The notes beneath the pieces were generated by a model that made no database searches, was not told the origin of the DNA, and saw only the letters and a list, made by a program, of their open reading frames with translations. Shown in pieces: positions 48-19,877 of a stretch of DNA of 23,135 nt. The translations under genes and the position numbers were made by a program. Origin of the DNA: a virus; the IMG/VR virus record IMGVR_UViG_3300021137_000105, positions 1-23,135 of that record; one strand, given 5' to 3'. Within the stretch, counting starts at the first letter, position 1; each line of letters starts with the position of its first letter.

Positions 48-1091
48 TTAGTTTCCTTTTTCTAATCTTTGTATTTGTTGTTCCTGATAGTCTGGATCTT
101 GCCAGCTGTATGGATATTCTGCTTGACTTGTACTAGTGCGTATACCAGTAACATCAAGCCGAGTATTTAACTCAGCCCATATAGCCAGGTAATCTTCTGT
201 GCCAAAGCTACGCCGGAGATCAACTTGCCCTACCTTAGGATGTCCTATAGTTAAACTTTTATCTTCTGGGTCAAATCCATTCGTAATCAGCCATTCGCGA
301 AACTCTGTTAATTGTTTTATTTGAAAGGGAAAGGCCCCAGGATTGTTGGCCCATTCTATGTCAAAATCACCAGCTGCTTCTGTCTGCGACTTTAGTGTTT
401 GAGTAGTTAATTCGTCGATGCGGCTGTCACGCCCTTCGTCGTTGAACACTTCATAATGATGTTTGCCCACGGCCTTGTTTACACCCACATACACACCACC
501 TAGACTACGGTTAATAGTCGCTATACCGAACAGCTCATAGTCCTCTTCGGTTAGCACAAAGCGTGGTGCATTTAGCCAACACATCAGCTGGCTGGGTCGT
601 TGCCATTCTGGTTGAGTGTGCTTTTTACGCCAGCTTAACGCCCATGATTCAAACTCATGACACAGTAGATTAAGTTGACGGATATGCCAGCGTACTGTGC
701 TATCAGCCCACTTATAGTAAGTGCTGATCGCGCCACTAACACCCTGCAGGTCTTCAAAGTAACGATGCAAGTGGTTGAACTTGTTGTGTATTAACCCGTG
801 CGCTGAGTCTATACAAGTTTCAATGGTAAACACATCGTCAATTTGATAGCCGATCTCGGCCGCATTTATAGCAGCTATGCTAGTGTTGATCTGTTCTATT
901 AGGTATGAGCCGTTGCGTGGCCCTTCAGCAAACCCTAAGAAGCAGTAGTTCTTTTCAAGATGATAGTTGTTAGCTATTAAGTTGTTTAAAGCAGCTAACC
1001 ATCGCCGACTTAAACTGTTATCGTAGACATTGATGTATACTGTCAAGTCCCCTAAGTCCACCTCTACTACATCAAGTAATAATTTGTTCAT
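48..1091 (-). CDS. Conserved hypothetical phage protein, 347 aa
   Basis: I do not recognise a functional family. The protein opens with a beta-rich stretch, followed by segments such as YDNSLSRRWLAALN and NYHLEKNYCFLGF near residues 23-54. A His/Tyr-rich middle (HNKFNHLHRYFEDLQG) and a Trp-rich region follow. I see no signal peptide or membrane segment. The chosen ATG has an AAGGAA ribosome site and overlaps the end of the upstream radical SAM gene by 20 nt, so the two are probably translated together. Similar-looking proteins of unknown role seem familiar from marine T4-like phages, but that is recollection, not a search. Its place at the end of the radical SAM cluster makes it a candidate accessory or partner protein. 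The seven-or-more conserved-looking Trp and His residues do not form a motif I can name. Confidence 0.85.
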   Translation of the reverse strand: MNKLLLDVVEVDLGDLTVYINVYDNSLSRRWLAALNNLIANNYHLEKNYCFLGFAEGPRNGSYLIEQINTSIAAINAAEIGYQIDDVFTIETCIDSAHGLIHNKFNHLHRYFEDLQGVSGAISTYYKWADSTVRWHIRQLNLLCHEFESWALSWRKKHTQPEWQRPSQLMCWLNAPRFVLTEEDYELFGIATINRSLGGVYVGVNKAVGKHHYEVFNDEGRDSRIDELTTQTLKSQTEAAGDFDIEWANNPGAFPFQIKQLTEFREWLITNGFDPEDKSLTIGHPKVGQVDLRRSFGTEDYLAIWAELNTRLDVTGIRTSTSQAEYPYSWQDPDYQEQQIQRLEKGN

Positions 1092-2367
1092 ACCATTCCT
1101 TTATTTCCGTATCCGCACTTACGATATCTGCCAGTGTATATGCGTCGTTGCGTATGCGCTCTAGTTCGAGTATACGCTGTTTACCCCGAGAAATTTGCGC
1201 TTGGGCTTCGCCTGGCCATTGTTCTTCAAATGTAGGTCTATGCTTTAGCTGTAGGACTACGCTCTTCAGGGCCCCATCTGGTAGATCAGCTGTCAATTCA
1301 TCGACCAGGCGATCTAGTATGTGTCGGGGTAAGGCCATTGGGCTTAAGATAATATCTGGTGTAAAGCTGAATATGACCTTGGCCAAGATGTCCACATCAA
1401 GATTGTCGGCCAGCTGCTGTATGCGGGTCACTTCAAATAACCCCGGCAATGTCAAGGTAAAGTCTATACGCATTTGCCTACGGTTACGGGCCTGCGCTAG
1501 GCCCTGCTTGAAGTTTGCTAACCATTGCGCATAGTCAAGACCTGTGCGTATATACTCTCCTGTTCTTCCAGTACCGTCCAGGCTAGCACAGATCTGCCAG
1601 TTGCGTAGGTGGGCCAAGATGTCCCGGTAAAGGTTAACACCCCGATAATCAACCCTGCTAAGATTAGTATTGTAACGGGCATACACACGATCGCCGTCGC
1701 CTTGTGCTACTATTTGCTGCATATAGCGCCAATGCTGTTCGTACATCAAGGGTTCACCACCCACCCAGTATACTTCCTCTACACGATGTTCAGCAACAGC
1801 AGCAGCGAACTCTTGCTCAATTTGTGTATCTTGGAATTGACTTATTTGTTCTCTTACAGCGGGCAGCATCCATGCGTTTTTAGGATTAGCCCAGTCCGTC
1901 ATCGCGTTGGCTCGCTGTTCCGTTTCCCAACTGCTGCTTAACATATCACCACACATACGGCATTTAAAGTTACATAGGTTACTAAAACGATAGTCCCAGC
2001 TTATGGGTTTAGCAGTGGTATACCCTGTGTCATCTGTGGCAGCGAGCACTTCATCGCGTCTATGCCCAAACATACGATTAAAGTAACTACGGTAAACATC
2101 AGTGTTTAGCAGCTTTTCATTGCATACTGCGCATTCGGGCAACTCTTCATTGGCCAGCATTCTGCGGCGGACGCTGCGCATGTGCTCGCTGTTCCAGTGT
2201 TGGTCCAGGGTGATAGGTTGGTAGCTGCCCGAGCCTGGAGCCGTGTCTATATACTGTGTAAAACTTTGCGCAGGTTCGCGGCTAGCACAGCATAGTCTAC
2301 GCTCTGTTTGTGGGCTAAGATATGTATGTACCCAAGGAGCCAGGCACAGTCGATCAGGTGTTGACAT
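1072..2367 (-). CDS. Radical SAM protein with N-terminal SPASM/twitch-like domain
   Basis: This 431-residue radical SAM enzyme is predicted to bind a 4Fe-4S cluster through C132, C136 and C139 (CNFKCRMC) and cleave S-adenosylmethionine. A GGEP motif at about 203-206 fits the SAM-binding strand, and SLDG further on is typical of SPASM-type family members. Before the core lies a cysteine module: C8 in CLAPW, the pair C26-C27, then W58 followed by C79 and C82. This is the pattern of a SPASM or twitch auxiliary cluster domain, but at the N-terminus instead of the C-terminus. I recall this arrangement being annotated as 'twitch domain-containing radical SAM protein'. The start ATG overlaps the end of the upstream glycosyltransferase-like gene by 14 nt. 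The substrate is unknown. SPASM proteins usually modify peptides, so a protein target is plausible. Confidence 0.92.
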   Translation of the reverse strand: MSTPDRLCLAPWVHTYLSPQTERRLCCASREPAQSFTQYIDTAPGSGSYQPITLDQHWNSEHMRSVRRRMLANEELPECAVCNEKLLNTDVYRSYFNRMFGHRRDEVLAATDDTGYTTAKPISWDYRFSNLCNFKCRMCGDMLSSSWETEQRANAMTDWANPKNAWMLPAVREQISQFQDTQIEQEFAAAVAEHRVEEVYWVGGEPLMYEQHWRYMQQIVAQGDGDRVYARYNTNLSRVDYRGVNLYRDILAHLRNWQICASLDGTGRTGEYIRTGLDYAQWLANFKQGLAQARNRRQMRIDFTLTLPGLFEVTRIQQLADNLDVDILAKVIFSFTPDIILSPMALPRHILDRLVDELTADLPDGALKSVVLQLKHRPTFEEQWPGEAQAQISRGKQRILELERIRNDAYTLADIVSADTEIKEWYEQIIT

Positions 2368-3286
2368 AGTCTAATATTGGCGTAATAATGTTGTCGATAA
2401 ACATCTGCTGAACTCTATCAGCATTGTAAAACAAGTTGTGATTATGTCTGAGTTTTTCCCCGGTTAACTTGTCGTACGCTTGCTCTTTAAAGTTTTGAAC
2501 ATTATCTACAATCTGAGCTAGTCGTGTGGGTTGGTCTTCTACAGTGTCGTAGCTTTCATCAAATAAGTTTTCAAATGTTTCAAACCCTAGCTCATGCAAG
2601 TATGCCAGTGTACCTGTTTGCCCAAACACTACAAAGGGATGATAAAATGATATGGGTTTAAATGTTTTTTCCGATACTTTAACTGGATACTTACTGTAAG
2701 TTACTGTTTCTGATACTATGGTAAAGTATGTACTGTCATACCATTCTGGCGTAAAGTAGCGTTGAAATATACCTTCTGATTCTTCTAAATCGTTTGGTAA
2801 TCGACGACCTAGATCAATAACACTGTATAACAGTTGATCTAATACTGGCTCTAATGCCGCTAGTAATTGTCGACGGTGTGGTTTTAATTGTCTAATAGCC
2901 AAGAATGCTCGATGTGTATACTGTTTATTAGGCTGATAATTTTGATATCCTTGTGTAATCCACAGGTAGTATTCATTGATCCACATGTAGTTTTTAGCTG
3001 ACCATACATATGCTTGTCCTTTGTATCGTTCAGCTAGTATGTCCGATACTTGCCACTCTATTAGATTATCAACAATAAGTCTGCTACCCGAGTTAACCAA
3101 GTCCGTATACCAAGTATTAACAAAGTTTGAATTGGTCATTACACAGTACTCCTTGGCGTTGTAGTTTTGAGCAGGATCGTAGTCAACAATATCAAAGTAG
3201 TTGGCAAATATTGGACGCAGGTAGTGTTGGTTAAGCACCACCCGGTCCTGATCATTAACAAGTATTCGAGGTTTAATTTGGTCCAT
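2354..3286 (-). CDS. Glycosyltransferase-like protein, EK-x-F-KP family (copy 4)
   Basis: This 310-residue protein shares two blocks with three other genes in the window. The first is L-K-P-H-R at 134-138 followed by a leucine-rich helix. The second is VSEKTFKPISFYHPFVVFG at about 204-222, followed by LGFETF and DESYD at 233-247. The second block resembles the donor-binding C-terminal half of GT10-type fucosyltransferases and related GT-B enzymes (E-K plus a conserved K/P, then a small glycine-bounded strand). I therefore call it glycosyltransferase-like; catalysis is not proven. It is the shortest of the four copies, with a compact N-terminal half. It sits between two radical SAM genes and overlaps both by 14 nt, which suggests co-expression. 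Confidence 0.8.
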   Translation of the reverse strand: MDQIKPRILVNDQDRVVLNQHYLRPIFANYFDIVDYDPAQNYNAKEYCVMTNSNFVNTWYTDLVNSGSRLIVDNLIEWQVSDILAERYKGQAYVWSAKNYMWINEYYLWITQGYQNYQPNKQYTHRAFLAIRQLKPHRRQLLAALEPVLDQLLYSVIDLGRRLPNDLEESEGIFQRYFTPEWYDSTYFTIVSETVTYSKYPVKVSEKTFKPISFYHPFVVFGQTGTLAYLHELGFETFENLFDESYDTVEDQPTRLAQIVDNVQNFKEQAYDKLTGEKLRHNHNLFYNADRVQQMFIDNIITPILDYVNT

Positions 3287-4493
3287 TATATTCTATTAAT
3301 TTAGCAAATTCTGGTTCTACCAGTGCTAAGTTTTGGTTGCGCCTACGATCTAAGTTGGCTATTTCTCTACGCATGTTTGACCCGTCTAAACTGACACCTG
3401 CGTTCATAAAGTCTACTATGCGATTGAACTCCTGCTGCGCTGCGTCGCTGACGCTCCCGCAGCTGCGTAGTTGGGTAGTGATAGCAGCCTTGGCTCGCTC
3501 GGGTAAGGTACTAATACTAAAGTAGTAGGCTTCGTGCATCATATTCCAGTAGATGTAGTCAAATCCTTGGCTGTAGTTCCAACGGGCCAGTTCCTCTAAG
3601 TAGTAGACATTAAACACATTAACAGTGCTGCATACCTGTAAGCGTATATTAGGATATTGGTCTCTTAACTGTTTAAATCTAGCTATGTTAGCCGCTACTT
3701 CTGGCCATACAGCATTAGATCGCTGATACTCAAATCGTGCGCCTACATCATCTATACTAAATGCTATCTCTACTAGTTTAAAGTGAGACCATATTTTTTC
3801 TGCACCTTCTGGATACTGTGTTCCGTTGGTGTTATAGTGGATCTCTATGCGGCTAGCCAGGCCTCGATTGACTAGTCCCTGTAGCATGTTAAAGTGCTCT
3901 TGAATCATAAAGGGCTCGCCACCGGTAAACTCTATATACTTAATCTGATCTACTACTTGATCTATTTCTGTCCAAAAGCTGAGATTTTCTCTAGGCCAAG
4001 CGCCTTGACGTAGCATTTGATAGTGGTGATTAGTTTTACGATCTATATTAGCACTAAGATTGTTTAGTTCCTCGGCGGCAAATGTACTACTAGACCAAGA
4101 ACCACATATACGGCATTTAAGATTACATATATTGCCCAGTTTAAGATCAAGAAACATCAATGGTTTGGCATCTATGGTCCAGTCTGTGTCGGGGATCATA
4201 TGCTTAAGACGATCTAGTGTATGCATGCGTTTACTAGTGCGCCCACTCCGCTCTTCTCTAAAACACTTACGGCATGTTTGTGGTTGTTTCCGATCTATAA
4301 ACTCTTGGCGCAACTTACGCATACTATCGCTGTTTTGTATGGTACTAAATTTAGCTGTAGCTAGATTAAACTTTTCTCCTGCGTCGTCTACTAGCTCATC
4401 TTCAGCTAAACAACAAGGGCGTACAGTGCCTACAGGGCTAGTTTCAAGACTAACCCAAGGTAATACACAGAATTGATCGTGTGGTATGTTCAC
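3273..4493 (-). CDS. Radical SAM protein with N-terminal SPASM/twitch-like domain
   Basis: This 406-residue protein has its radical SAM cluster motif at C123, C127 and C130 (CNLKCRIC) and a GGEPF motif at 191-195. The N-terminal module is FCVLPW with C9, the pair C27-C28 in RPCC, and C74-x-x-C77 preceded by an M-R-x-L-R segment. This is a clear SPASM-like cysteine layout placed before the core. A second small feature is FSIDD, the family's usual S-(I/L)-D turn, near residue 245. The ATG start overlaps the upstream radical SAM stop by 4 nt (ATGA). It is most like the 4490-5809 and 1072-2367 products, sharing the PW and CC signature, and less like the other two radical SAM proteins here. Its substrate is unknown. 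Confidence 0.92.
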   Translation of the reverse strand: MNIPHDQFCVLPWVSLETSPVGTVRPCCLAEDELVDDAGEKFNLATAKFSTIQNSDSMRKLRQEFIDRKQPQTCRKCFREERSGRTSKRMHTLDRLKHMIPDTDWTIDAKPLMFLDLKLGNICNLKCRICGSWSSSTFAAEELNNLSANIDRKTNHHYQMLRQGAWPRENLSFWTEIDQVVDQIKYIEFTGGEPFMIQEHFNMLQGLVNRGLASRIEIHYNTNGTQYPEGAEKIWSHFKLVEIAFSIDDVGARFEYQRSNAVWPEVAANIARFKQLRDQYPNIRLQVCSTVNVFNVYYLEELARWNYSQGFDYIYWNMMHEAYYFSISTLPERAKAAITTQLRSCGSVSDAAQQEFNRIVDFMNAGVSLDGSNMRREIANLDRRRNQNLALVEPEFAKLIEYNGPN

Positions 4494-5809
4494 TTGAGAG
4501 GTATCCTTAGTTCTTTAGGGCGGAACTCTGCAATTGCCTCTAGTTCTGGTACTACTGCCAGAAGACTTTCACTACGACTCCAATCAAGATCGTTAACTGT
4601 CTGCCAGAAGTTCTTGAGCAAATGACTGTTGTCCGTGGCCATCATAAAAGCAATGGCAGCTTCAAATCCGCCGAGTGCTCGATGTATAGGATCTTTATCT
4701 TGTAGCCACTTGATGTGATCTTCAAAGTCCTGCTTAAACTTGAGTTTAATTGTTTTGGGCAGTATATCTATTCTATAGTTGTCCGGGCCCTGTAAGATGT
4801 TTAAGTTAAAGTCTTTGGCCTCAATAAATCCCGACTCTACCATATAGCGGTGGAATCGAGTAAAGTTCCATATATTCATTATACTCAGCGTGGGACTAAT
4901 CATAAAGTCTATATGCGGGCATTCACGTTTAAGATCACGTATGTTTTGTTCAACCTGCGCCCAGTCTGTTCCTGAGCGTATAATAGCCGCACGGTCGCCC
5001 ATGTCATCTAAACTAGCAGCCACGCATATAGTGGGAAAATGTTTCCATAGATCTAATACGCTTTGCTTTTTAAATTTAAGTTCAGTCAGGTTAGTATTGT
5101 AGACTAAACGTACACGAGTATTGCCTTTTTCTATTAATAGCTTAAGAATACGATTATGTTCTTCCATAATAAGCGGTTCGCCACCGGCAAAATATATTTG
5201 ATCCAGGTGCGGAACATGCTCTTGCATTTGCTCCCAGACATCTTCTTCATGTCTACCCGCAAATTGTACACGGGGCCTAAGTTCTCGACCCCATAGCTTA
5301 ACATCATCGTCATACCAACGTGAGCTAAAGATACTACCACAGCTACGACACTTTAAGTTACATATATTACTAAAGCGTACATCCCAATAGTGTAACTGCA
5401 TATTGGGCAATGTACCATCGGGTCGTGTTTCGTTGATCTCTGCTATATGATGCCCAAAGCTCTTGTTTGAATTGTTACGCATACTGGCAAAGTCTGCACC
5501 TTCTTGCTCGTAACAGTCGCCGCATTCCTGACATGGTTGATCCGCTAGCATGTTACGACGCATGGCTCGCATGGGCTCATCGTTCCAGATTTCGCGCATG
5601 GATTTTTCTTTAAAGTTACCAATTGGGTGTGCGGCTTTGCCCAGGCAACAGGGATAAGCGCGACCGTCTGGCCAAGCGTGTAAGTGTATCCAAGGTAACA
5701 TACAAAACGTATCCGACTCTAACAGTTTATAGCGTTGATCTTCTGTGAGTTCTTCTAATTTGATATAGTTAGGTATGCGGTCTTTCCAATTGTAATTGCT
5801 TAAACTCAT
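4490..5809 (-). CDS. Radical SAM protein with N-terminal SPASM/twitch-like domain
   Basis: The 439-residue product starts at the ATG that overlaps the upstream stop by 4 nt (ATGA). A second in-frame ATG five codons earlier, at 5824, is possible, and neither has a clear ribosome site, so translational coupling is likely. The radical SAM motif is C150, C154, C157 (CNLKCRSC), followed by a GGEP motif. The N-terminal module is the most SPASM-like in the window: FCMLPW with C36, YPCC with C54-C55, then an M-R-E-I-W-N segment and a cysteine group at C93, C96 and C99. M-R-E-I-W-N is close to the 'SLxEIWNS' signature seen in ordinary C-terminal SPASM domains. A roughly 35-residue leader with mixed charge precedes the module. 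Confidence 0.92.
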   Translation of the reverse strand: MSLSNYNWKDRIPNYIKLEELTEDQRYKLLESDTFCMLPWIHLHAWPDGRAYPCCLGKAAHPIGNFKEKSMREIWNDEPMRAMRRNMLADQPCQECGDCYEQEGADFASMRNNSNKSFGHHIAEINETRPDGTLPNMQLHYWDVRFSNICNLKCRSCGSIFSSRWYDDDVKLWGRELRPRVQFAGRHEEDVWEQMQEHVPHLDQIYFAGGEPLIMEEHNRILKLLIEKGNTRVRLVYNTNLTELKFKKQSVLDLWKHFPTICVAASLDDMGDRAAIIRSGTDWAQVEQNIRDLKRECPHIDFMISPTLSIMNIWNFTRFHRYMVESGFIEAKDFNLNILQGPDNYRIDILPKTIKLKFKQDFEDHIKWLQDKDPIHRALGGFEAAIAFMMATDNSHLLKNFWQTVNDLDWSRSESLLAVVPELEAIAEFRPKELRIPLK

Positions 5810-7137
5810 AATGTTGTATACCATTCAGCTAATGCTGGAAATGTTTTAGTAAAGTTCTTGTTACGGCGTTGGTCGTATTGTGTGTAAAATTGCTTAAAGT
5901 CGTTGAGCAAACTAGGCATGTCAAAGGTGTCAGAGTGTGGAGTCTTGACTACGTCTAAGTAATCAATCAAGCGTTGTAAATGATTAACTTCGTGCTCGTG
6001 CATATATGGATTATTACGGTTGCGATCTAAGAAGTCTTGTAACCGATCTTTATAGTCGGTACGCAACGTGTCTGGCAATACTAACGGGCTTTGGAAGCTG
6101 GGAAAGCGTAGAATATTTAAAGTAAAGCTCACACGCTCACGTCCGTACATTTGCTTAAACTCTAGCAATTGATATAACAAGCTAGGCAAACTATCCAGGC
6201 ATAATGCGTTGATAGTAGCCATACAATGTACTGCTCTTATACGGTCGCTATCTAGTAACTTCTGCACATTTGCTATCCAAGCAGTATAGTCTAATCCATC
6301 GCGAATATACTCTGCTTGATTATAAACACTTTCTTGACTGGTATAAATGTCTACCGCTAATCCTTCTACACTATCTAGTAGTCGGTCAACATCTATTTCT
6401 CGGCCCAGATTACTGTTAATAGCCAATCTAGTTGTGCTACGGCCGCGGTTGTTTTTAAACCAATCTAATAGCTTCCAGGTCTCACCCGACATTAACGGCT
6501 CACCACCGGTGATTCTTAGCTCTTGAAGAGTCTGGTGAAGATCAGTTTCCCACCAAGCAAAAAACGCTTCGCTGTAGGGATTAACTTCATTAAACCGGTA
6601 TAGTTGAGCACTATCATGAGTGTGAGTAAAGTGCCCACGCCCATCAGACACCAAGGACTCATAAGGACCGTTGGATCGTATGTCTTTGACCCATGTACTA
6701 GAGAAAGCAGGGTTACAATAGCTACAAGCAAATTGGCAAGTGCGATCGAATGCGATTTCAAGTGTGCGAAGATTGACATCTTCTTGGTGTGGTTTTGTGT
6801 ATGCTTCATCAAGGGCCTCTATAGGGTAAATTTTACTTTTATACACACGGTCGCTAACGGCATCGCGACCCATGTCTTCAATTTTCCAGCAGTATTCACA
6901 ACCCTTGGGGCGGTTGCCTAACTGCATGTTCAATCGATCTATTTTCTTTTCTACTGTATTGTGTATAGCACCAGGATTCTCATCGAGTGCTGATAAGTCT
7001 ATTTTGTGAGCAGGAGGGTGATGACAGCTTGTGCTCATACCACTTCCTAACCATATAGTAGCGTTGTACCATTTGGCCGCACAGAAGCTGGCACTTTTTG
7101 TGTCTAAAATTTGTTGTTTAAATTCCAAATCATTCAT
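5806..7137 (-). CDS. Radical SAM protein, variant N-terminal Cys module (KW/HPP type)
   Basis: This 443-residue protein carries the radical SAM motif at C134, C138, C141 (CQFACSYC) and TGGEPLM at about 210-216. Its N-terminal module differs from the three radical SAM genes downstream. FCAAKW with C19 replaces C-x-x-P-W, and a single cysteine in SCHHPP (C38) replaces the CC pair. C80 and C83 in CEYCW complete it. A Trp-rich block (AFFAWW) precedes the GGEP motif. The 10291-11712 product has the same variant, so the two form one subfamily. The start has no visible Shine-Dalgarno and lies 5 nt after a TATAAT box, so it may be read from a leaderless mRNA. The stop overlaps the next radical SAM start (ATGA). 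Confidence 0.92.
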   Translation of the reverse strand: MNDLEFKQQILDTKSASFCAAKWYNATIWLGSGMSTSCHHPPAHKIDLSALDENPGAIHNTVEKKIDRLNMQLGNRPKGCEYCWKIEDMGRDAVSDRVYKSKIYPIEALDEAYTKPHQEDVNLRTLEIAFDRTCQFACSYCNPAFSSTWVKDIRSNGPYESLVSDGRGHFTHTHDSAQLYRFNEVNPYSEAFFAWWETDLHQTLQELRITGGEPLMSGETWKLLDWFKNNRGRSTTRLAINSNLGREIDVDRLLDSVEGLAVDIYTSQESVYNQAEYIRDGLDYTAWIANVQKLLDSDRIRAVHCMATINALCLDSLPSLLYQLLEFKQMYGRERVSFTLNILRFPSFQSPLVLPDTLRTDYKDRLQDFLDRNRNNPYMHEHEVNHLQRLIDYLDVVKTPHSDTFDMPSLLNDFKQFYTQYDQRRNKNFTKTFPALAEWYTTL

Positions 7138-7142
7138 ATATT

Positions 7143-7171
7143 ATTATAACACATTAATAGAAATTTTGCAA
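7143..7171 (-). promoter_or_regulatory. Sigma70-type promoter immediately before a start codon
   Basis: Read on the minus strand, TTGCAA (7166-7171), a 17-nt spacer and TATAAT (7143-7148) form a near-consensus bacterial promoter in the short gap between two genes. The -10 box ends only 5 nt before the ATG at 7137, so transcription would begin at or next to the start codon. No ribosome site is present. It could drive the last six genes of the cluster separately. AT-rich chance occurrence cannot be excluded. Confidence 0.5.
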
Positions 7172-7175
7172 AGAT

Positions 7176-8231
7176 TTATTGAAATAGATTCTTTGTTTTA
7201 TACTGTTGCTCTTTGGCAAATTCGTAATACCGAACTCGATTGAACTGTATGTCAGGTAACATTGCTGTATACAAATCCATAAGTTCGGCATTAGTTTTAG
7301 CCGCAAGATACCGTAATACTTCTACTGTGGTTGCGTGAACATCTGGATTAGTTTCAACATCGATATGCCCCCAATGATGATTAAAAGTTTTAAATCCGTT
7401 ATTCCTTAACCACTGATATATGCTTGTTTGTCCGTGTATTAAAAATGGGCGTAACCCTATAATCGGCTTCCACATTTTTTCCGTAATGAATCTAGGTTTC
7501 CATGAGTCAAATTCAGTTTCGCTTACTACATTAAGTAAGCATGTTCGCCATATGTCTAACCGACCTAGTGTCACTAAGTCGTTTGGTATGCCACCAAATT
7601 CATCGTGCTTGCCGTTGTGTTTATAATCAGCTGGATCATCGTCAATGGTTAACACTATAGGTATCTCGTCGCCCTCGGTCCAATCATAGTCGTGATTATC
7701 GTTTGACCCTAATGTTACTATGCCACGCTCAAGCAAATTCTCTTTAATTAATCTTTTTGTTAACTCTAATCGATGTGGCCGTGGTTTTCGTTGATATAAT
7801 AAAAATGCTTTATCAAATATGGTTGGTGATATTTCTTCTTCGGTGTACCCCGGACTTTTTTGTGCAGTAATAAACGAATGGAAGTTCCATTCAAATGGGC
7901 TATCAGCGTACATGCCTATTAAATAGGTATTTTGAATATGTAATCCTGTTTGTATTGTTTCAACATCCTGATCTCTTAGATACATAGGATCTATTACAGA
8001 TAATAGAAATAAATTATCATATGAATCGCCGTTGTTAATTAGTTCGTTAACTCGAGTCCAGTTATTATTGTTATTAATAAATCCAGGACCAAACCAAGTA
8101 GTATTAATTAGTAGATTCTTTTGTTCTGGAAAGTGCTGTTTGATTTGTTCTGCGGTTGAATTGAATATGTCAATTTCTTCTGGGCCGTATTGCCACGATT
8201 CTGGGAAGGTTGTTCCTATAACTGTTATCAT
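7176..8231 (-). CDS. Glycosyltransferase-like protein, EK-x-W-KP family (copy 3)
   Basis: This 351-residue member of the window's four-copy family shows both family blocks clearly. The first is QRKPRPHR at 147-154 with a following LLERG helix. The second is FITEKMWKPIIGLRPFLIHG at 248-267, then NNGFKTF at 277-283. The C-terminal block resembles GT10 or other GT-B donor-binding halves, and the upstream half would hold the acceptor side; this is family analogy, not proof. An acidic segment (IDDDP near 196-200) lies between the blocks. The gene has 40 nt upstream with only a weak ribosome site, and it is followed by the promoter-bearing gap at 7138-7175. Confidence 0.8.
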   Translation of the reverse strand: MITVIGTTFPESWQYGPEEIDIFNSTAEQIKQHFPEQKNLLINTTWFGPGFINNNNNWTRVNELINNGDSYDNLFLLSVIDPMYLRDQDVETIQTGLHIQNTYLIGMYADSPFEWNFHSFITAQKSPGYTEEEISPTIFDKAFLLYQRKPRPHRLELTKRLIKENLLERGIVTLGSNDNHDYDWTEGDEIPIVLTIDDDPADYKHNGKHDEFGGIPNDLVTLGRLDIWRTCLLNVVSETEFDSWKPRFITEKMWKPIIGLRPFLIHGQTSIYQWLRNNGFKTFNHHWGHIDVETNPDVHATTVEVLRYLAAKTNAELMDLYTAMLPDIQFNRVRYYEFAKEQQYKTKNLFQ

Positions 8232-8271
8232 TGTTTATTACTTTCGGAAGGGATTTTGTAAGATACTATAT

Positions 8272-9132
8272 TTAATCTATGTTGAGTCGGGTATATAGAT
8301 ATTCGGCCCATTGCCGATGTCCATCTTTTAATGGATGATAGTTTCTAAATTTAGCAGGATCTTTAAGCATATTGTTTCTTCGTTCTGCCACTGGAATAAC
8401 ATCTAACATCCATTCTTTAAAAAAATCCAACTGTTTGGAATTCTTAATAACTTCTGGCATTCTTAATAGGGCCTTAACACCGTCTATACATATAGGAGAT
8501 ATAATATCATCTGAACAACCCATAACCCGATACCACGGAAGCAACCGCTGATCTAACGGAACAGACTCAAGCCCAATTGGATCAACAAAGTTGGTACCGA
8601 TTTTTATCATAACATGCTCGTAAGGACTTAATGCTTGATAAATTCTATTAACACAATCTTGATTAAATTTAATTGGTAATTTAATGTAATCTTTAGGTTT
8701 AGTAATATTATCTTGGACCCAAGTTGGGTAGTGTATATAACGATCATACTGCGTGTTAAACCAGCGGCCTGCACCAGTGAATACACAAATTACATAAATT
8801 GATCGGTAGTCAAGCTGTGGTATTAGTTGCCCTAGTTCTTCAATCATTGCAGTTGCCCAAAAATTACTACTGGCAGACAACCCTAAATTTAACCAATCGG
8901 TTTTTAATTCATCAGACAATACATTTCCATATAAGTGCGTTATTCTAAAATTGTCGTCGTGATTATTTTCAGAGATATCACTGCCCCAGGTCCAACTGTC
9001 ACCGACAGTAACAATTAACATATCGCTGTTGCGATCGATAAAATTAAAAGTATTAGTGGGAGTTTGATGCCAGCTACTATAGCGATCTGCAATGGTAAAA
9101 TAATTTGGTAATGTGTCTTGTGTAAGTTTCAT
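8272..9132 (-). CDS. SGNH/GDSL-type hydrolase
   Basis: This 286-residue protein has the SGNH hydrolase layout: block I VGDSWTWG with the nucleophile Ser46, a block II-like NLGLSASSN around 82-90, an IGTNF strand that stands where block III is expected, and a C-terminal HPLKDGH at 266-272 supplying the Asp/His side of the triad. SGNH enzymes act as esterases, acyltransferases or deacetylases, often on polysaccharides. No signal peptide is visible, so it would act inside the host cell or on the virion. Its stop is 41 nt before the next gene and its start overlaps the upstream gene by 4 nt. It is flanked on both sides by glycosyltransferase-like genes, which suggests a shared carbohydrate-related substrate. 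Confidence 0.85.
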   Translation of the reverse strand: MKLTQDTLPNYFTIADRYSSWHQTPTNTFNFIDRNSDMLIVTVGDSWTWGSDISENNHDDNFRITHLYGNVLSDELKTDWLNLGLSASSNFWATAMIEELGQLIPQLDYRSIYVICVFTGAGRWFNTQYDRYIHYPTWVQDNITKPKDYIKLPIKFNQDCVNRIYQALSPYEHVMIKIGTNFVDPIGLESVPLDQRLLPWYRVMGCSDDIISPICIDGVKALLRMPEVIKNSKQLDFFKEWMLDVIPVAERRNNMLKDPAKFRNYHPLKDGHRQWAEYLYTRLNID

Positions 9133-10307
9133 TGTGGGTAGTGCTCGTTTACAAACTGAATAAATCTAGCAAGTAGCTCGCTACGAATTTTTGGTTGTAG
9201 TTCTGCTAAGTGTTGTTGATTATACTCGCATATATCAGCGGTAGCAGTTACAAATGTGCTTAGATCCTGGTGACATAAATCTTCTACTACTTCGCTAATC
9301 CTTGCACAACGGTCTAACGGGTTTTCAATTGAATCAAAACTTTCATCAATAAACTGTCCAAATGTTTTAAAACCTAGATTATGCATATCTTTGTAATAGC
9401 CAGCATTGCCGGCTACTATCCACGGGTGTCCTATTGCAATCGGTTTCCAAATTTTTTCTGTTCTAAAAGTATACTGGTAATCAAATACTGTTTCTGTTAC
9501 TAGGCTAAAGTAAGTATCAATGTAGGGCTTTGATTCTAGATATATATCTCCCCATTCATTATTAAACAAGTGATGTTTAACATGCAAGTCTCTGCTTGAA
9601 TTTGCTGAGACGATTGTTGATTGTGTTTGATATCTACTAACTTCATATTCGGGTGGTAAGCATCTAACTGGAAAAGAGTCGTAGGTAAATTTTTGATTTG
9701 GGTAATGTTGTGGTAAACTTTCATTGCCGTGCTCATACCATTCTAGATATCGAAACCCACTGGTTGTTCTAGGATCTAAATTCGTCCACAAACTTTGATC
9801 AAGTAATCCACTTGATTTGAATCTTTCTAGCAGATACTTTCTATGAGTTCGCATACGCCCATTTAAAAATAAAAACTTGTACGGGCGAGTACTTGAACTA
9901 GTTTGTTTATATTCTGCAGCGGCTGTTAAGTTTTCGTCGTAGTCGAGTACTTTAGTAAGAAAATTTTCATAGTATAAATGTGGCATATCTGGAGGTAAAT
10001 ACCCACCAGTTATAATTAAAATTTTTCCTTGTTTAACTAATTCATATATTCCTAGCATTTTGCATTGCCAATACATCGTATCGGCACCTTCTGCTGGGTT
10101 TGAAAATATAACTTTTATAGTATCATTTTCTATTAACTGTTTTATGTATGATGTATTAGCGGTAAACTGTTGGCGCCCGATAACATAAATGGCAGTGGGT
10201 ACTATAGTATGTTTGGTTAAATCATAAAAAGTATCATCTGCTATAGGAGATAATTGCTCTTCAACTTCACAAAATATATCTACTATAAGTTTACGATTGC
10301 CGAGCAT
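9129..10307 (-). CDS. Glycosyltransferase-like protein, EK-x-W-KP family (copy 2)
   Basis: At 392 residues this is the longest of the four family copies. Block one appears as FLNGRMRTHRKYLLE at 147-161, a PHR-to-THR variant. Block two is FRTEKIWKPIAIGHPWIVAG at 281-300, followed by LGFKTF at 311-316 and DESFDSIENP at 321-330. The spacing and the small-residue strand after EK-x-W-KP resemble the C-terminal domain of GT10-like or other GT-B glycosyltransferases. The N-terminal 130 residues look like a Rossmann-type half (ILIITGGYLPPDMPH near 96-110). The start overlaps the radical SAM gene upstream by 17 nt. The acceptor is unknown. Confidence 0.8.
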   Translation of the reverse strand: MLGNRKLIVDIFCEVEEQLSPIADDTFYDLTKHTIVPTAIYVIGRQQFTANTSYIKQLIENDTIKVIFSNPAEGADTMYWQCKMLGIYELVKQGKILIITGGYLPPDMPHLYYENFLTKVLDYDENLTAAAEYKQTSSSTRPYKFLFLNGRMRTHRKYLLERFKSSGLLDQSLWTNLDPRTTSGFRYLEWYEHGNESLPQHYPNQKFTYDSFPVRCLPPEYEVSRYQTQSTIVSANSSRDLHVKHHLFNNEWGDIYLESKPYIDTYFSLVTETVFDYQYTFRTEKIWKPIAIGHPWIVAGNAGYYKDMHNLGFKTFGQFIDESFDSIENPLDRCARISEVVEDLCHQDLSTFVTATADICEYNQQHLAELQPKIRSELLARFIQFVNEHYPQ

Positions 10308-11712
10308 AGTACTCGCACTCCTTCCACCAGCTGGCCATTTCTGGAAACGCAGTTAAAAAGTTGGTGCCATGTCTGCGGTCAGCTTCGCTAAAGAAACGAT
10401 AAAAGTCTGCTTTATTTTGTTGAATACGTTCGACATTTAATTGTTGCCCATCACGCATCCATGCTATGTCGCGATCTAACCTGGCTATCTCGTAGTCCTT
10501 AAATCCCTGGAAGCGTGTTGCTTCTGTTTCAATTTGACGTAGCATCCATGCCCACAAGTATTCTAATTGCTCTACATAACTTTCTGGCAGTAGTTGTAGA
10601 CTTTGCCACGTAGGCTGACGTAGCACCGGTGTATCAAACCAAATACGTTGATAAGTTTTGCTGTATATCTTGCGTAAGCCTAGTATACCAGCAAACAAAT
10701 TTGGCAATCCAGTTACACTAAGATTATTCATAGTAACAATAAACGTGATTGAATTGCGATAAGGGACTTCAGTTAAAAATTGGTTAACACGATCCCATAA
10801 CAAGTTAAAATCTAATCCGTGTCTAATGTATTCTGCTTGGTTGCCAAAACTATCCAAACTAATAAACTGCATAAAGTGTTCAAGCCGACCTTCTTGGCAC
10901 AGCTCTTTTATATAACCCAAATAACGTTGCCAGGACCGTTCATCTACACTGAAGTTACTTGTTACATTTAGGTGTAAGTTGGGTTTAGGATTGGCCAGGA
11001 CATAATCAAACACCCGGTAGGTATTTTTGTCCAACATAGGCTCACCACCGGTCATGCGGAAGTGTTCTAGTTCTGGATATAAGGTAGGCCACCAATCCCA
11101 GAATGCATCTACATAAGGATTAGGTTGTGAGTGAGGGATCGGTAAATTACGACCAGTGAAATGACTAGGATCGTTATGAATAGTAGTAGTAGGATACCCG
11201 CCCCATTTAGTGACCTCCTGCTGCCAAGTGCTACTGAATTGAGGACTACAATAGCTACAAGCCAAGTTACAAGCATGATTAAAATTAACTTCCACATAGC
11301 TAGGTATAACATCTTCATCTCCGTTTGAATTTACAATTACATCAAAGTCTTTGGCAGCCCAAGGCTCGCCAGACCGATAGTGACGATCGCTTAATTTACT
11401 GTTATCTTCCATTGCCCAGCAATAGCTACACTCGCTAGGACGTTCTTGCCGTAACATAATCTTACGTTGTTCTTTCTTATGTGGAGTGTTATGCAGTGCG
11501 CTAGGATTATCTGCTAGTAATTCTGCAGGTATTGCATGCAGTGGAGGATGGTAACAGGAGTTATTAAGTCCGGTGGGCAGGTGCAGACTAACTTGCTTCC
11601 ATTTAGCCAAGCAGAGTGCTGGACCCAATTGTTCTTTCATTTGCTCAGCACTACTGAGAAACAGTGATTTGAATTCGTCGGTGACTTGATCACCTTTGTT
11701 ATTCTGGGTCAT
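10291..11712 (-). CDS. Radical SAM protein, variant N-terminal Cys module (KW/HPP type)
   Basis: This 473-residue enzyme is the largest radical SAM protein here and the first of the five to be transcribed. The cluster motif is C148, C152, C155 (CNLACSYC), followed by TGGEPML. The N-terminal module is CLAKW (C34), SCYHPP (C53) and CSYCW (C95, C98), matching the 5806-7137 product closely and lacking the CC pair of the other three. Several other segments match that paralogue too: NPSALHNT, QFSSTW, AEYIRHGLDF. The two genes therefore come from one duplication or from a shared subfamily. AAGGAATAATCT before the ATG is a fair ribosome site. The start overlaps the SGNH gene upstream by 4 nt. Confidence 0.92.
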   Translation of the reverse strand: MTQNNKGDQVTDEFKSLFLSSAEQMKEQLGPALCLAKWKQVSLHLPTGLNNSCYHPPLHAIPAELLADNPSALHNTPHKKEQRKIMLRQERPSECSYCWAMEDNSKLSDRHYRSGEPWAAKDFDVIVNSNGDEDVIPSYVEVNFNHACNLACSYCSPQFSSTWQQEVTKWGGYPTTTIHNDPSHFTGRNLPIPHSQPNPYVDAFWDWWPTLYPELEHFRMTGGEPMLDKNTYRVFDYVLANPKPNLHLNVTSNFSVDERSWQRYLGYIKELCQEGRLEHFMQFISLDSFGNQAEYIRHGLDFNLLWDRVNQFLTEVPYRNSITFIVTMNNLSVTGLPNLFAGILGLRKIYSKTYQRIWFDTPVLRQPTWQSLQLLPESYVEQLEYLWAWMLRQIETEATRFQGFKDYEIARLDRDIAWMRDGQQLNVERIQQNKADFYRFFSEADRRHGTNFLTAFPEMASWWKECEYYARQS

Positions 11713-12263: not shown

Positions 12264-13069
12264 TCTTTAGAAAATCTTTCTATTTTATCTAAAAATTGGG
12301 TTGTTAGTGGTAAACAATCAAACCTTTGATCGAGCAACGGAAGTACTATTTCATTGGTCCATAAAAGGTGTACATTGCTCGGTGGATGCATTTTATTTAA
12401 TTGATTATAAAATTCTAAATTATTATCAATTGCATAGTTAATCAAGGATGTAAACTCGGTCCACTGTGGTCCTAATAAATGTTTAAAACTACTGACCAGA
12501 CTATCATCAAGTAGTTGTCTATCTAGTAAAGGAGTGCCTGTTACATAAGAATTCAAATCGTATTCCAATAGATTCCAAATATTTGAATCAAACAACGGAA
12601 TTAAATCAATTTGATTTTCTTTACAGTAAGCATTGAGACCGTGAAATAACAATATGTTGTTTACTGCCGAGATTGATGTGTTAAAGAAATTGTCATGGTA
12701 CAATTGTTTAACTTCGGGCCAATGGCTTCCGGTGCTCCAAAATCCATCAGTATTTTTTTGAGCAGGTTCTGCTGTTAGTTGCCACGGTCTGTGTTTTTGT
12801 TCTAAATAAGATAATATTTTATCGGGTGGGATATACATATCAAATTTATCTATTGTGGTAAACATTGGCATACACAGCACCGATTTTGATTTGGTTTCTG
12901 ACAATGCTTTTAAACAACTCAGGGTAATATAATAATTGCCAACACCGCGAGCACTGAGATTTATTACTTCGCGAGGATTTAATATTTCTATCACAATATC
13001 CGCCCAGGTAAACCACGGACTTGAGGTAATGCTTGCCCCAGATATAATTAAAGTATCAATTTTTTTCAT
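12257..13069 (-). CDS. SGNH-like protein with altered catalytic motifs
   Basis: This 270-residue protein resembles the SGNH fold but departs from its motifs. Block I reads ISGASITS, so the usual Asp of GDS is Ala while Ser13 remains. The next block, INLSARGVGNYYI, is a good match to block II. The C-terminal region HPPSNVHLLW has His but no D-x-x-H. Similar 'SGxS' proteins with an N-x-x-x-x-G-x-x-N block are familiar from marine phages, as far as I recall. It may be a diverged active enzyme or an inactive, sugar- or protein-binding relative. It overlaps both neighbours and lies directly before the 184-residue SGNH gene, so a paired function is possible. Confidence 0.72.
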   Translation of the reverse strand: MKKIDTLIISGASITSSPWFTWADIVIEILNPREVINLSARGVGNYYITLSCLKALSETKSKSVLCMPMFTTIDKFDMYIPPDKILSYLEQKHRPWQLTAEPAQKNTDGFWSTGSHWPEVKQLYHDNFFNTSISAVNNILLFHGLNAYCKENQIDLIPLFDSNIWNLLEYDLNSYVTGTPLLDRQLLDDSLVSSFKHLLGPQWTEFTSLINYAIDNNLEFYNQLNKMHPPSNVHLLWTNEIVLPLLDQRFDCLPLTTQFLDKIERFSKEW

Positions 13070-14160
13070 GCGCCAAGATATTGTTTTAGACTGCCAATTG
13101 ACTGATTGTTGTTTTCGCCAATGAGATTTTCAACTTGGTTGCTCCAGGCCAACTCAACATTGTGCATTACACTTTCATAACACAAATCAGTCAAGTCTTG
13201 ATGTGACAAACTCAATATCCAATCAATGTTGTTTAAAATTATCGACAGTCGATGGTTGTCATTTGATTCGTTATCGTATATACCTGCCCACGGATAATCA
13301 AATCGAAAACCAAATTTTTCAAGTCGTTGTTTGGTTTGAGTTTGTCCAGCAAATAAAACAGCATTGCCAGCAAATAGTGGTTTCCAAGTTTTTTCACTTA
13401 TATAAGGAGCTGGCAATATTCCAAACTCTGGAGTTTTACTTAGATTTTGTGTTTCGTTAATAGAATTTATAATTGTGTCTTGATAGGCCGCATGCGCAAA
13501 AAGCGAATTGTTCAAGGGATTGTTAATAAATTGTTCTTGATTTATTGGAGTTACTTTAAGTTTTTGTTTGTTTACCAACAGTTTGTCAATGTTCAAATAT
13601 CCTGTATTGTCAAATATATAACTGTCTTGATCTCGAATTTCAAAACCCAAGTTCCAACTCAGTACGACCTCACGAGGATCAGCGGCCAGTAATTTTGAAG
13701 TGATAAAAAATTTGTATTCACTCAGTCTTGAACTCAAACTGCTAATTTTAAATTTTCTGTCAGACAATGGTTTTGTTACCGGACCGGGGTTCATTTGTTT
13801 TATGGCTTTGATCCAGGTAGAGTGATGACAAACATTGAAAATTTTTACCCTGGGTAGCTGTACCAAATCATTCGGAAACATATCACACAAAATAACAAAC
13901 TCTGCCTGGGGGTTATTATGATATTGTTCCAAAAACCAATTGTCATTAAACACCTCAAAAAACCAAGCAAATATGTACAAACTACGGCCCTGCGGTATTT
14001 TTACATCTTCGTGGCTGGTCGAAATATTAATTAGACTGTAGGCATCTTTGTTTTTTGCCCAATCATGTAACCAACTCAAATCAATATCAATGAATTTCAA
14101 ATCGCAATTTGAGGTCAAGGTTTGATTCAGTTGATAAAACCATGGACTTTGTATGTTCAT
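13066..14160 (-). CDS. Glycosyltransferase-like protein, EK-x-W-KP family (copy 1, divergent)
   Basis: This 364-residue protein is the most divergent of the four family copies. Block two is plain: PYISEKTWKPLFAGNAVLFAG at about 252-272 with EKFGFRF following. Block one, SSRLSEYK at 143-150, keeps the position and an Arg but has lost the P-H-R core. The N-terminal part (residues 60-120) reads as an alternating beta-alpha region with aromatic residues, as in a GT-B half. The gene is 1 nt from the upstream glycosyltransferase-like gene and overlaps the next by 4 nt. Loss of PHR suggests a change in acceptor or loss of activity; I cannot tell which. Confidence 0.72.
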   Translation of the reverse strand: MNIQSPWFYQLNQTLTSNCDLKFIDIDLSWLHDWAKNKDAYSLINISTSHEDVKIPQGRSLYIFAWFFEVFNDNWFLEQYHNNPQAEFVILCDMFPNDLVQLPRVKIFNVCHHSTWIKAIKQMNPGPVTKPLSDRKFKISSLSSRLSEYKFFITSKLLAADPREVVLSWNLGFEIRDQDSYIFDNTGYLNIDKLLVNKQKLKVTPINQEQFINNPLNNSLFAHAAYQDTIINSINETQNLSKTPEFGILPAPYISEKTWKPLFAGNAVLFAGQTQTKQRLEKFGFRFDYPWAGIYDNESNDNHRLSIILNNIDWILSLSHQDLTDLCYESVMHNVELAWSNQVENLIGENNNQSIGSLKQYLGA

Positions 14161-14161: not shown

Positions 14162-15088
14162 TTACCAACCTTCTTGACTCCTAATTACATCTATCTCTCG
14201 AATCATAATACCTCGGTTATGCCAATTAGATCTATAGTGTTGTTTAAAAAATTTGCTTTCGTTGGGTCCTAGCATGTTAACAGGCAAATCTAATTGTGTG
14301 ACCAAATCTTCTGCAACCTGTCCAGCTAGCATTTCGGGGTTTGAATCTTCGACGGTTTTCCACAATTTTTCTAATTCGGCAAAATCTTGCACAGTACGAT
14401 AGTCCCATTGCGGAGTAATCATAGTCATATATGTGCCCATTCTACTACCAGCTATAGCCCATATACCGTTGTCTGCATCTCGTCCCACATTGTGCCATAT
14501 GGTCAAGTGGTCAAGATTGCGATGGTGTACGCGATTTTGAAATTCTGTAATTGTAGGCCGGGCGCCTTTGTTTAAGCACATCTTAACACCTTCACGGAAA
14601 CCGGCTCTCCACGCTTGGAACGCCGATCCATTAGGGTATGTTGTACTATAACAATCATGCATGGCATAGTAGTTAGGATAAAAACAAAATTCTACATCAT
14701 TCTCTGCACTACCATCTGTAGCTTCGTGTGTACGCATAGCGTAAACAAATTCCTTTGACCATACACTTATACCACCGTTGCCGTACATTAGTCCATTAAT
14801 AAAATTCTTGGCTCGCCACCGATAAACACACGTAGTATCAGTGTCGTTAATATCTAATGTAAGATTAAAAAAGTTAGCATCTGGGATATTATCACCATCA
14901 ATTAATACAAAGCGATCGGTGGTACTAGCATCGGCTGACGCCTTATGTGCAGCATCGCTACCTTTAATACCATCTATACGAACAGCCCACGGTACCATAT
15001 TCTTAATCTTAATCCACGTTTCTTCTTTATTGGGCTCGTCATAAGTTAAGTAGATGCAGTCTAAATCTGCTATATCAATTGAATTCAT
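14162..15088 (-). CDS. GT-A-like glycosyltransferase-type phage protein
   Basis: The 308-residue product opens with a Rossmann-like strand (DCIYLTYDEPN) and carries VLIDGDNIPD with a DxD-type pair at D64 and D66, the metal and nucleotide-sugar motif of GT-A enzymes. A later block, YGNGGISVWSKEF, fits the acceptor-side glycine loop of the same fold. A long C-terminal part rich in Trp, His and Arg (HNVGRDADNGIW) has no motif I can name. It starts 14 nt inside the end of the upstream small gene. It is a conserved-looking marine phage protein; the glycosyltransferase call rests on the DxD context only. Confidence 0.7.
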   Translation of the reverse strand: MNSIDIADLDCIYLTYDEPNKEETWIKIKNMVPWAVRIDGIKGSDAAHKASADASTTDRFVLIDGDNIPDANFFNLTLDINDTDTTCVYRWRAKNFINGLMYGNGGISVWSKEFVYAMRTHEATDGSAENDVEFCFYPNYYAMHDCYSTTYPNGSAFQAWRAGFREGVKMCLNKGARPTITEFQNRVHHRNLDHLTIWHNVGRDADNGIWAIAGSRMGTYMTMITPQWDYRTVQDFAELEKLWKTVEDSNPEMLAGQVAEDLVTQLDLPVNMLGPNESKFFKQHYRSNWHNRGIMIREIDVIRSQEGW

Positions 15089-15425: not shown

Positions 15426-15684
15426 TATTCTTTGCCCGTTGATCTGCTCGATATTGTTTGTCAAACTTTTCTTCTTGCACAGTCTTTTCTCCAAACACCT
15501 TACGACGATTGCCACATAGTCCACATTCGGGGTTACCGCAATCCATTGCGTGTTGTTTAGCAAACCCGTGAGCCTTGTCTAAAGGCAGACCGTGTGCTTT
15601 GGCAATTTTAACCTGCTTATTAATGGCATTATCATCTTTTAATAAACGTTTACTATGTTTGATTTTATCTTCGTCTTTACTCAC
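15409..15684 (-). CDS. Small Cys-rich basic protein, likely metal-binding
   Basis: This 91-residue, highly charged protein has a Lys-rich N-terminal helix region. A compact ligand set follows: H45 then C49, C54 and C57 in DCGNPECGLCGNRRK, which would suit one zinc ion. After it come GEKTVQEEKFDKQ and an acidic tail. The C-x-x-C-x-N-x-R pattern followed by 'EKT-x-QE' is one I associate with a short conserved protein of cyanophages and related myoviruses, role unknown. It overlaps its neighbours on both sides (8 and 17 nt). A nucleic-acid-binding role is conceivable from charge and the metal site but not shown. Confidence 0.82.
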   Translation of the reverse strand: MSKDEDKIKHSKRLLKDDNAINKQVKIAKAHGLPLDKAHGFAKQHAMDCGNPECGLCGNRRKVFGEKTVQEEKFDKQYRADQRAKNNDADD

Positions 15685-16405
15685 TTAACCACTCCTTAAC
15701 ATGATAATGTACTAGTCCCCATTGTGCAACGGTGTTAATTCTAAATGGATTATTTTCCCAAACCAATTCTTGAGTCCAGTCTGTTGTTTGTATAGGATTA
15801 ATATAGCGTTTCATATGTACAATGGTAGGCCCAAGCCCAACAGGTAGTGTTACCTGCTCTGGTCCTAAAATCTGTGCGGCTATAGCATATACCACGTCTG
15901 TTGTTGGTGCGTCGTCTGGAAATTTTAATATCTTTTTATAACTATCCCATTGCTCAAATATCATTTGTACCAAATTAAAAAATTCTTTTGCAGTGTGACT
16001 TAATCTCCAATAGGTAATGGCGTTATACACATCGGGTAGCTTGTTCTCATCAAATATTTTTCTATAATATCTTGATATAGCTGATTGATCATAAAAATCT
16101 CTTGCACCTTGGCTAATAACAACATCGCGTTTTTCTAGTAATGTCCACCAATGATCAATAGGACTGGTACAAATCATATCTGCTTCTAGTTTAATAGTCT
16201 GCCTATACGGGCTAGCAGTAAATACTTGCCAGTCATTAACATACCCGCCTAGGTCTCCATATGGCAACATTTCTTTTGTTAAGATAGTTACATTTGCATT
16301 AGGATGCCACTTATGTATGCTGTCAGATAACTTCTGCGCACAAGCAACATAGACATCACCTATAGCCGGTATAAGATACCCTCGTTCAGCTGTTACTAGC
16401 AACAA
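15677..16405 (-). CDS. Glycosyltransferase-like protein (E-A-D motif), TTG start
   Basis: This 242-residue protein looks like a small GT-A enzyme. It opens with a strand containing LLVTAERGYL, has a KLEADM motif (E74, D76) where the metal-binding DxD is expected, and a later segment ITYWRLSHTAKEFF that fits the acceptor loop. The start is TTG: GGAGA lies just before two tandem TTG codons at 16405 and 16402, and either gives sensible spacing. The start overlaps the previous gene's end by 20 nt. Its length, motif position and C-terminal W/H-rich tail resemble the preceding 250-residue gene, so the two are probably related glycosyltransferases. Confidence 0.78.
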   Translation of the reverse strand: MLLVTAERGYLIPAIGDVYVACAQKLSDSIHKWHPNANVTILTKEMLPYGDLGGYVNDWQVFTASPYRQTIKLEADMICTSPIDHWWTLLEKRDVVISQGARDFYDQSAISRYYRKIFDENKLPDVYNAITYWRLSHTAKEFFNLVQMIFEQWDSYKKILKFPDDAPTTDVVYAIAAQILGPEQVTLPVGLGPTIVHMKRYINPIQTTDWTQELVWENNPFRINTVAQWGLVHYHVKEWLSE

Positions 16406-17138: not shown

Positions 17139-17440
17139 CTGTTTTTGTTTAGTTCTTCGTATTCTACAAGCCAAGCATTCATTTGTTCTTGCCAATGACT
17201 GCGTACTTGATCTCGAAACTCGCGGGTTTGTACTTTAACCGGAGTATCGTATAAATCAAGTATAACAGAATCTGGACTAGTACACGCAGACAAGGTGGAT
17301 AATAATTCTGGTCCAGCTAACCACATTCCACTAGCGTAAGCAAATGTCAATTTGGCTTGATATTTTTCTTTAAGAGTGCGTCGGGCGACCGCATGTTCAA
17401 AACGGCTACGACCGTGTGCAACAAGTTCGTCAGTATTCAT
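17135..17440 (-). CDS. Conserved hypothetical protein, 101 aa
   Basis: This is the first gene after the terminator that closes the tail-fibre region. The product is mostly helical and charged, with a central ALLS-like hydrophobic turn (LAGPELLSTLSAC) and ending in WQEQMNAWLVEYEELNKNR. It reminds me of a small conserved protein of cyanophages with unknown function. The ATG lacks a ribosome site; TACAAT about 6-11 nt upstream could be a weak -10 box, but no convincing -35 is present. Its stop overlaps the next start by 4 nt, so it leads the glycosyltransferase group. Confidence 0.8.
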   Translation of the reverse strand: MNTDELVAHGRSRFEHAVARRTLKEKYQAKLTFAYASGMWLAGPELLSTLSACTSPDSVILDLYDTPVKVQTREFRDQVRSHWQEQMNAWLVEYEELNKNR

Positions 17441-19869: not shown

Positions 19870-19877
19870 TATTTATG
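19870..19877 (-). promoter_or_regulatory. Possible T4-type late promoter box
   Basis: CATAAATA on the minus strand matches 7 of 8 positions of the T4 late -10 element TATAAATA. It overlaps the stop codon of the upstream virion gene and lies about 48 nt before the tail-fibre ATG. Late genes of T4-like phages use such isolated boxes with no -35 element. One-mismatch matches occur by chance in AT-rich DNA, so the call is tentative. Confidence 0.35.

Follow-up and report, generated by a model that had tools for sequence, protein, structure and literature searches.

Five radical SAM proteins with an N-terminal twitch domain form a conserved set behind the tail genes of uncultured T4-like phages

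The window analysed here is a stretch of 23,135 bases (IMG/VR record IMGVR_UViG_3300021137_000105, positions 1-23,135) from a virus. Its genes are closely packed on the minus strand and include five genes for radical S-adenosylmethionine (SAM) proteins, named rSAM A to rSAM E, which are interleaved with genes for glycosyltransferase (GT)-like proteins and lie behind a group of tail genes (Table 1). The radical SAM genes overlap with their neighbours or are separated from them by gaps of at most 40 nucleotides.

Catalytic signatures of the five proteins

A CX3CX2C and a GGEP motif, which an earlier reading of the letters alone (the sequence-only reading) had noticed in five genes, are present in each of the five intact open reading frames (ORFs). 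The NCBIfam model NF033640 (N_Twi_rSAM), with a curated cut-off of 170 bits, is passed by all five proteins with 282-406 bits, at least 112 bits above the cut-off, and the model is covered almost end to end. The generic Pfam radical SAM family PF04055 is over its cut-off in rSAM C and D only and below it in rSAM A, B, and E.

In the residue numbering of rSAM C, the N-terminal C41, C60, C101, and C104 are invariant in an alignment of 57 sequences and conserved in 379-380 of the 381 viral relatives. The seven cysteines, GGE, N245, S271, and R283 are each kept in at least 379 of these relatives; since the loci were collected with the core-motif pattern of rSAM C, motif conservation is partly selected in clade C and not in the other four clades. 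S271 and R283 have the same spacing as the ribose motif S211/R223 of SkfB, which comprises the SAM ribose/carboxylate residues (PMC6231123). At the level of these residues, the window encodes five radical SAM enzymes, each with the complete signatures of a predicted SAM-cleaving cluster site and a predicted four-cysteine auxiliary site.

Reversed domain order

The sequence-only reading placed a cysteine module resembling SPASM or twitch before the core. The position and the twitch assignment hold, and the SPASM assignment does not. In a hidden Markov model search, the Pfam SPASM family PF13186 falls on the N-terminal module, over its cut-off of 21.5 bits in two proteins (50.2 and 30.9 bits) and below it in a third (18.7 bits). 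The seven-cysteine SPASM motif CX9-15GX4C-gap-CX2CX5CX3C-gap-C is absent. Since only four N-terminal cysteines are conserved, the module is a twitch rather than a full seven-cysteine SPASM domain.

The solved structure nearest to the N-terminal module is that of BtrN, a 2-deoxy-scyllo-inosamine dehydrogenase (PDB code: 4m7t). A profile built from 57 relatives hits BtrN at E=1.5e-5 over the whole sequence and at an i-Evalue of 0.006 over the twitch stretch alone. Profile positions 8-80 correspond to residues 183-258 of the BtrN chain, the C-terminal twitch, with the four cluster cysteines all in register. The core signature is found at residues 10-49 of the BtrN chain and after position 100 of the profile. 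Therefore, since the twitch follows the core in BtrN and precedes it in rSAM A-E, the domain order is truly reversed, and none of the five has the BtrN-type layout of a core and then a C-terminal twitch. The four-cysteine twitch pattern and the radical SAM core are common to both, whereas the whole-protein match is remote. In the AlphaFold model of rSAM C, the predicted succession of a cysteine, a beta-hairpin (strands 47-50 and 55-57), a cysteine, a helix, and two cysteines appears to match the hairpin/helix cysteine layout described for the twitch of BtrN and SkfB (PMC6231123).

This order had been taken for an unknown architecture. That claim has to be given up, as NF033640 already names a twitch-before-core family with the same domain order and length. 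NF033640 is, however, a family name without an assigned function, and in the window five diverged clades occur as one syntenic set. An N-terminal extension of about 120-160 residues recurs in relatives, on rSAM C (loci L014, L018, L020, L022, and L036) or on rSAM D (L059), and it matched no Pfam family.

Conservation of the five-paralogue set

When ORFs from 80 related loci were clustered, a repeated gene order emerged: families 19-12-9, the small family 8, the GT-like families 6-5, the small family 14, family 4, and rSAM A, continued by (GT-like), rSAM B, C, and D, (GT-like), rSAM E, family 11, (family 13), and the carbamoyltransferase family 10. With family 4 as the anchor of a reciprocal search, families 12, 9, 8, 6, and 5 were present in 80/80 loci. 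N_Twi genes were found in 77 of these 80, and the remaining three contigs break off no more than about 1.1 kb from family 4.

In a maximum-likelihood tree of 85 proteins, the five genes of the window fall into five distinct clades, and every clade is represented in all, or almost all, of the 16 sampled loci; clade C has 12 rows since the length filter excluded fused or extended forms. The paralogues are older than the divergence of these phages and have remained separate since. Five clades with about one member per phage each suggest five distinct retained roles. Natural fusions join C and D (L012, L013, and L040), a D-like protein and E (L018), and two R0 proteins (L084), which suggests that neighbouring radical SAM enzymes may act together. 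As the major capsid protein gp23 is encoded in 10 of 14 long related records, the phages are T4-like. It appears that a fixed five-paralogue set with such a link to tail genes in many uncultured T4-like phages serves a need of the phage particles or of the infection.

It is the conservation of this set, not its copy number, that is striking. Five copies had seemed well beyond the usual number for a phage, but for this group the number is ordinary, and copy number as an anomaly was rejected: 3-21 N_Twi copies per record occur in 50/50 related IMG/VR records, which were chosen for carrying rSAM C, and in 2017 Nishimura et al. described 12 radical SAM genes in one environmental T4-like virus genome (PMC5332604). 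The available part of that report reads this very high count as iron-sulfur metabolism and holds no analysis of domain order, synteny, or substrate, unlike the present study. Among deposited phage records, 15 of 50,697 were matched by tblastn with rSAM C, and a scan of genome contigs with a single protein gave three weak loci, none over the cut-off.

Radical SAM cassettes together with tail fibre and GT8 genes are already known from the host recognition cluster of T4-like pelagimyophages (PMC7029224). That cluster likewise combines tail, GT, and radical SAM genes; however, it is described as hypervariable with radical SAM cassettes that are optional, while here both the set of five paralogues and its order are conserved. 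The pelagimyophage cluster is sited between VrlC and gp14, and the window breaks off within the region. The freshwater pelagimyophages of the same study are without radical SAM genes. In the literature searched, there was no report of the conserved five-clade set, the permutation relative to BtrN, the fusions, or the extension by carbamoyl- and amidinotransferases.

Neighbouring genes in the window

Table 1. Features of the window (pLDDT, predicted local distance difference test; pTM, predicted template modelling score; clade support as paired values).
Feature	Position	Strand	Remarks
rSAM A (clade R0a)	10291..11712	-	N-terminal twitch + radical SAM; NF033640 303 bits; clade 100/100, one member per sampled locus
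rSAM B (clade R0b)	5806..7137	-	N-terminal twitch + radical SAM; NF033640 285 bits; clade 100/99
rSAM C (clade R2)	4490..5824	-	N-terminal twitch + radical SAM; NF033640 406 bits; AlphaFold pLDDT 93.7, pTM 0.91
rSAM D (clade R3)	3273..4493	-	N-terminal twitch + radical SAM; NF033640 336 bits; clade 100/100
rSAM E (clade R7)	1072..2367	-	N-terminal twitch + radical SAM; NF033640 282 bits; clade 100/100
GT-B-like protein, family 1	9129..10307	-	model pLDDT 88.3, pTM 0.88; weak PDB matches, E 0.008-0.4, mostly GT-B glycosyltransferases
GT-B-like protein, family 1	7176..8231	-	clusters with 9129-10307; EKxxKP..G..GF.TF motif in common
GT-B-like protein, family 1	2354..3286	-	clusters with 9129-10307
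Divergent family-1-like protein	13066..14160	-	C-terminal motif in common by alignment
Possible SGNH/GDSL-like protein	8272..9132	-	PF00657 E=0.06, under cut-off
Family 4, putative GT-A-like, module core	14162..15088	-	neighbours the same in 80/80 loci
Family 5, GT8/glycogenin-like	15677..16405	-	phrog_1903 E=7e-10; joint 5+6 profile against glycogenin weak, E=0.02
Family 6, GT8/glycogenin-like	16386..17195	-	phrog_1903 E=7e-5; joint 5+6 profile against glycogenin weak, E=0.02
Family 14, small, about 116 residues	15075..15425	-	median length of relatives 116 residues
Family 8, small conserved protein	17135..17440	-	present in 80/80 loci
Family 9, Ser/Thr-rich (34%) virion tail protein	17513..18526	-	homologue of PA5oct gp360
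Family 12, virion structural/tail protein	18539..19822	-	homologue of PA5oct gp359 and of a Phosso protein
Family 19, virion-associated protein	19873..20523	-	homologue of PA5oct gp357
Family 11, conserved, directly after rSAM E	48..1091	-	after R7 in 42/54 loci

The interleaving with GT-like and SGNH genes, which the sequence-only reading had reported, is found with partial support from fold and context, and the assignments themselves are weak by sequence. Searches of families 4 and 1 against PDB sequences gave nothing usable, and family 4 matched no database family. Family 1 folds confidently, yet its matches in the PDB are weak. The start of family 14 is probably an internal ATG, as the listed ORF begins at an upstream TTG. 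Beyond rSAM E, family 11 is followed within five genes by the carbamoyltransferase family 10 in 26 of 28 loci. The family 11 protein (350 residues) is deeply conserved with many invariant His, Glu, Asp, and Arg residues, and it had no match in the databases searched.

Link to virion genes

The three homologues of families 19, 12, and 9 in Pseudomonas phage PA5oct are flagged in its record as detected by electrospray ionisation tandem mass spectrometry. In Sinorhizobium phage Phosso, homologues of families 19 and 12 are followed by another radical SAM battery, with the core first (L089:16999-24742), whose radical SAM/SPASM proteins have best matches of the PapB/DynA/DarE/AnSME type and which also includes a cupin. 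A neighbouring Phosso protein of 306 residues ends in YCHTSCHASCHSSRSRR, which resembles a modified core peptide carried by a larger protein. The Phosso CHTSCHASCHSSR protein has no relative among the viral contigs.

As the strongest alternative to the function proposed below, it is possible, though on the doubtful side, that the five enzymes modify tail proteins directly by epimerisation, cross-linking, or thioether formation, and that the GT-like proteins glycosylate separately. Peptides are frequent substrates of SPASM/twitch radical SAM enzymes, the genes are placed strictly behind virion genes, CteB and anSME are among the whole-model fold matches, and the Phosso enzymes that resemble SPASM peptide maturases adjoin a homologous tail gene, with a neighbour ending in CHTSCHASCHSSRSRR. 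However, no PqqD-like recognition element of ribosomally synthesized and post-translationally modified peptides (RiPPs) was matched in the five proteins at E<=1, or in the N-terminal extensions of relatives, by sequence search only. There is no adjacent precursor peptide gene, as the sequence-only reading had also seen, and no cysteine-rich or core-peptide-like C-terminal tail was seen on virion families 9, 12, and 19. A RiPP cluster was therefore rejected. The neighbourhood of the relatives is, moreover, rich in carbohydrate enzymes.

Carbohydrate enzymes in relatives

Among relatives of the window, family 10 is a NodU-type carbamoyltransferase (PF16861/PF02543, 157 and 125 bits, far over the cut-off), family 16 is an amidinotransferase (StrB1 inosamine-phosphate amidinotransferase, PDB code: 1bwd, E=2e-27), and family 18 is an NAD-dependent epimerase/dehydratase. 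One NodU-like carbamoyltransferase of a phage has 5-hydroxymethylcytosine as its substrate (PMC8670742), and it is conceivable, with very little probability, that the carbamoyltransferase, the radical SAM enzymes, and the GT-like enzymes act on a hydroxymethylated base in a hypermodification of DNA. However, the DNA-modifying copies adjoin thymidylate synthase homologues, and GT-flanked copies occur on unmodified contigs (PMC8670742); here GT-like and radical SAM genes lie on either side of the carbamoyltransferase. Only 4 of the 14 long related records encode a thymidylate synthase, in every case with the Asn of the dUMP type, and a Tet/JBP search was silent, as was its control.

The enzyme set (BtrN-, StrB-, and NodU/TobZ-like) also resembles that of aminoglycosides, and a jumbo cyanophage cluster is predicted to yield a sugar/amino-acid metabolite (PMC7824862). 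A pathway to a free secondary metabolite, antibiotic- or signal-like, nevertheless seems highly improbable given the tail linkage, and no genes for activation, export, or self-protection were seen in the window.

Cultured relatives are found in Vibrio phages K566/K567 and KVP40. In K566, five N-twitch matches are interleaved with two GT8 genes over the cut-off and one GT4-like gene; identity is about 23%, two of these matches are over the cut-off and the other three below it, and adjacency to tail genes is established for the group of the window. Near this cluster, K566 encodes an annotated PagP-like lipid A acylation protein (L088:25990-26439), hinting at outer-membrane modification. The function of the set can be tested with this cultured phage.

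In bacteria the family is rare, and 0/296 genomes of one phylum had an N_Twi protein over the cut-off. The sole bacterial protein found over it (174 bits) is on a Methylomagnum plasmid within a polysaccharide cluster that contains several glycosyltransferases and an ATP-binding cassette (ABC) exporter, and a weaker Manganitrophus member is within a glycosyltransferase/alginate cluster. For the pelagimyophage region of tail fibres, GT8 glycosyltransferases, and radical SAM cassettes, modification of the O-chain has been proposed (PMC7029224). Together with the exporter-linked bacterial member, this proposal favours enzymes that act on the host surface, where they would produce or change a polysaccharide (O-antigen or capsule) and thereby block superinfection. 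Such a role, the next alternative after direct protein modification, is considered unlikely here, however, since the linkage is near-absolute to virion genes, not to early or host-takeover genes, and no exporter, polymerase, or anchor gene was recognised within the island.

Proposed function

From the gene content, domain order, conservation, and synteny, and from the homology of the upstream genes to virion proteins detected by mass spectrometry, we infer a candidate substrate, chemistry, acceptor, and biological role. The window may represent a conserved island for glycan building and radical glycan tailoring in T4-like phages, located behind tail genes, a proposal to which about an even chance is given. 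Modification of virion or host products, as suggested by the sequence-only reading, remains plausible for an island linked to virion genes; its lean towards peptides is weakened by the BtrN-like module and the carbohydrate enzymes. Glycan tailoring is favoured over peptide maturation because of the carbohydrate neighbours in relatives, the bacterial member in a polysaccharide cluster, the kinship with BtrN, which oxidises an aminocyclitol (PMC9012708), and the lack of a recognition element or precursor.

The possible steps can be described as follows. The GT-like proteins would assemble a short glycan, and each radical SAM enzyme would abstract a hydrogen atom from a different sugar carbon. 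Electrons may be taken up by the twitch cluster, a role proposed in BtrN, or another hydrogen donor may act, leading to dehydrogenation, epimerisation, or deoxygenation. The carbamoyl- and amidinotransferases of the relatives would decorate the product afterwards. The Ser/Thr-rich tail protein, whose gene lies just upstream, is the probable acceptor, and the glycan is most likely displayed on the tail, where it would alter host recognition or mask the tail; the main alternative target would be a host-surface glycan. More tentatively, and with clearly less confidence, the permuted-twitch set of five enzymes and the phage glycosyltransferases may build a chemically novel sugar for display on the tail, and adjacent enzymes may operate in complexes, either fused or paired. 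Candidates for this sugar are deoxy-, keto-, epimerised, carbamoylated, or guanidinylated forms.

Several observations weigh against glycan tailoring. The glycosyltransferase calls for the genes of the window are weak by both sequence and fold, and the carbamoyl- and amidinotransferases are encoded in relatives, past the point where this truncated window stops. A further cellular member (113 bits) has an unrelated, non-glycan context. The Phosso radical SAM proteins next to a homologous tail gene, with best family matches to peptide maturases, could indicate protein targets.

If tail glycans are indeed made, the island would be a source of new sugar-modifying radical enzymes and would help to explain how host recognition diversifies in such phages. 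Virion-borne glycans made by radical chemistry would represent a new class of phage surface chemistry.

Minor features of the window

A probable homing endonuclease (window:20468-21115; phrog_314 E=5e-7) is inserted between tail genes and overlaps family 19. The T4 late promoter TATAAATA had 0 matches in the window versus 2.9 expected by chance, and the counts of sigma-70-type promoters and terminators in the window were no higher than in shuffled sequence. The G+C content of the interleaved variable genes (window:7176-10307 and 11709-14160) is 0.34-0.37, versus 0.42-0.49 in the radical SAM genes, fitting a turnover of cassettes within a conserved frame.

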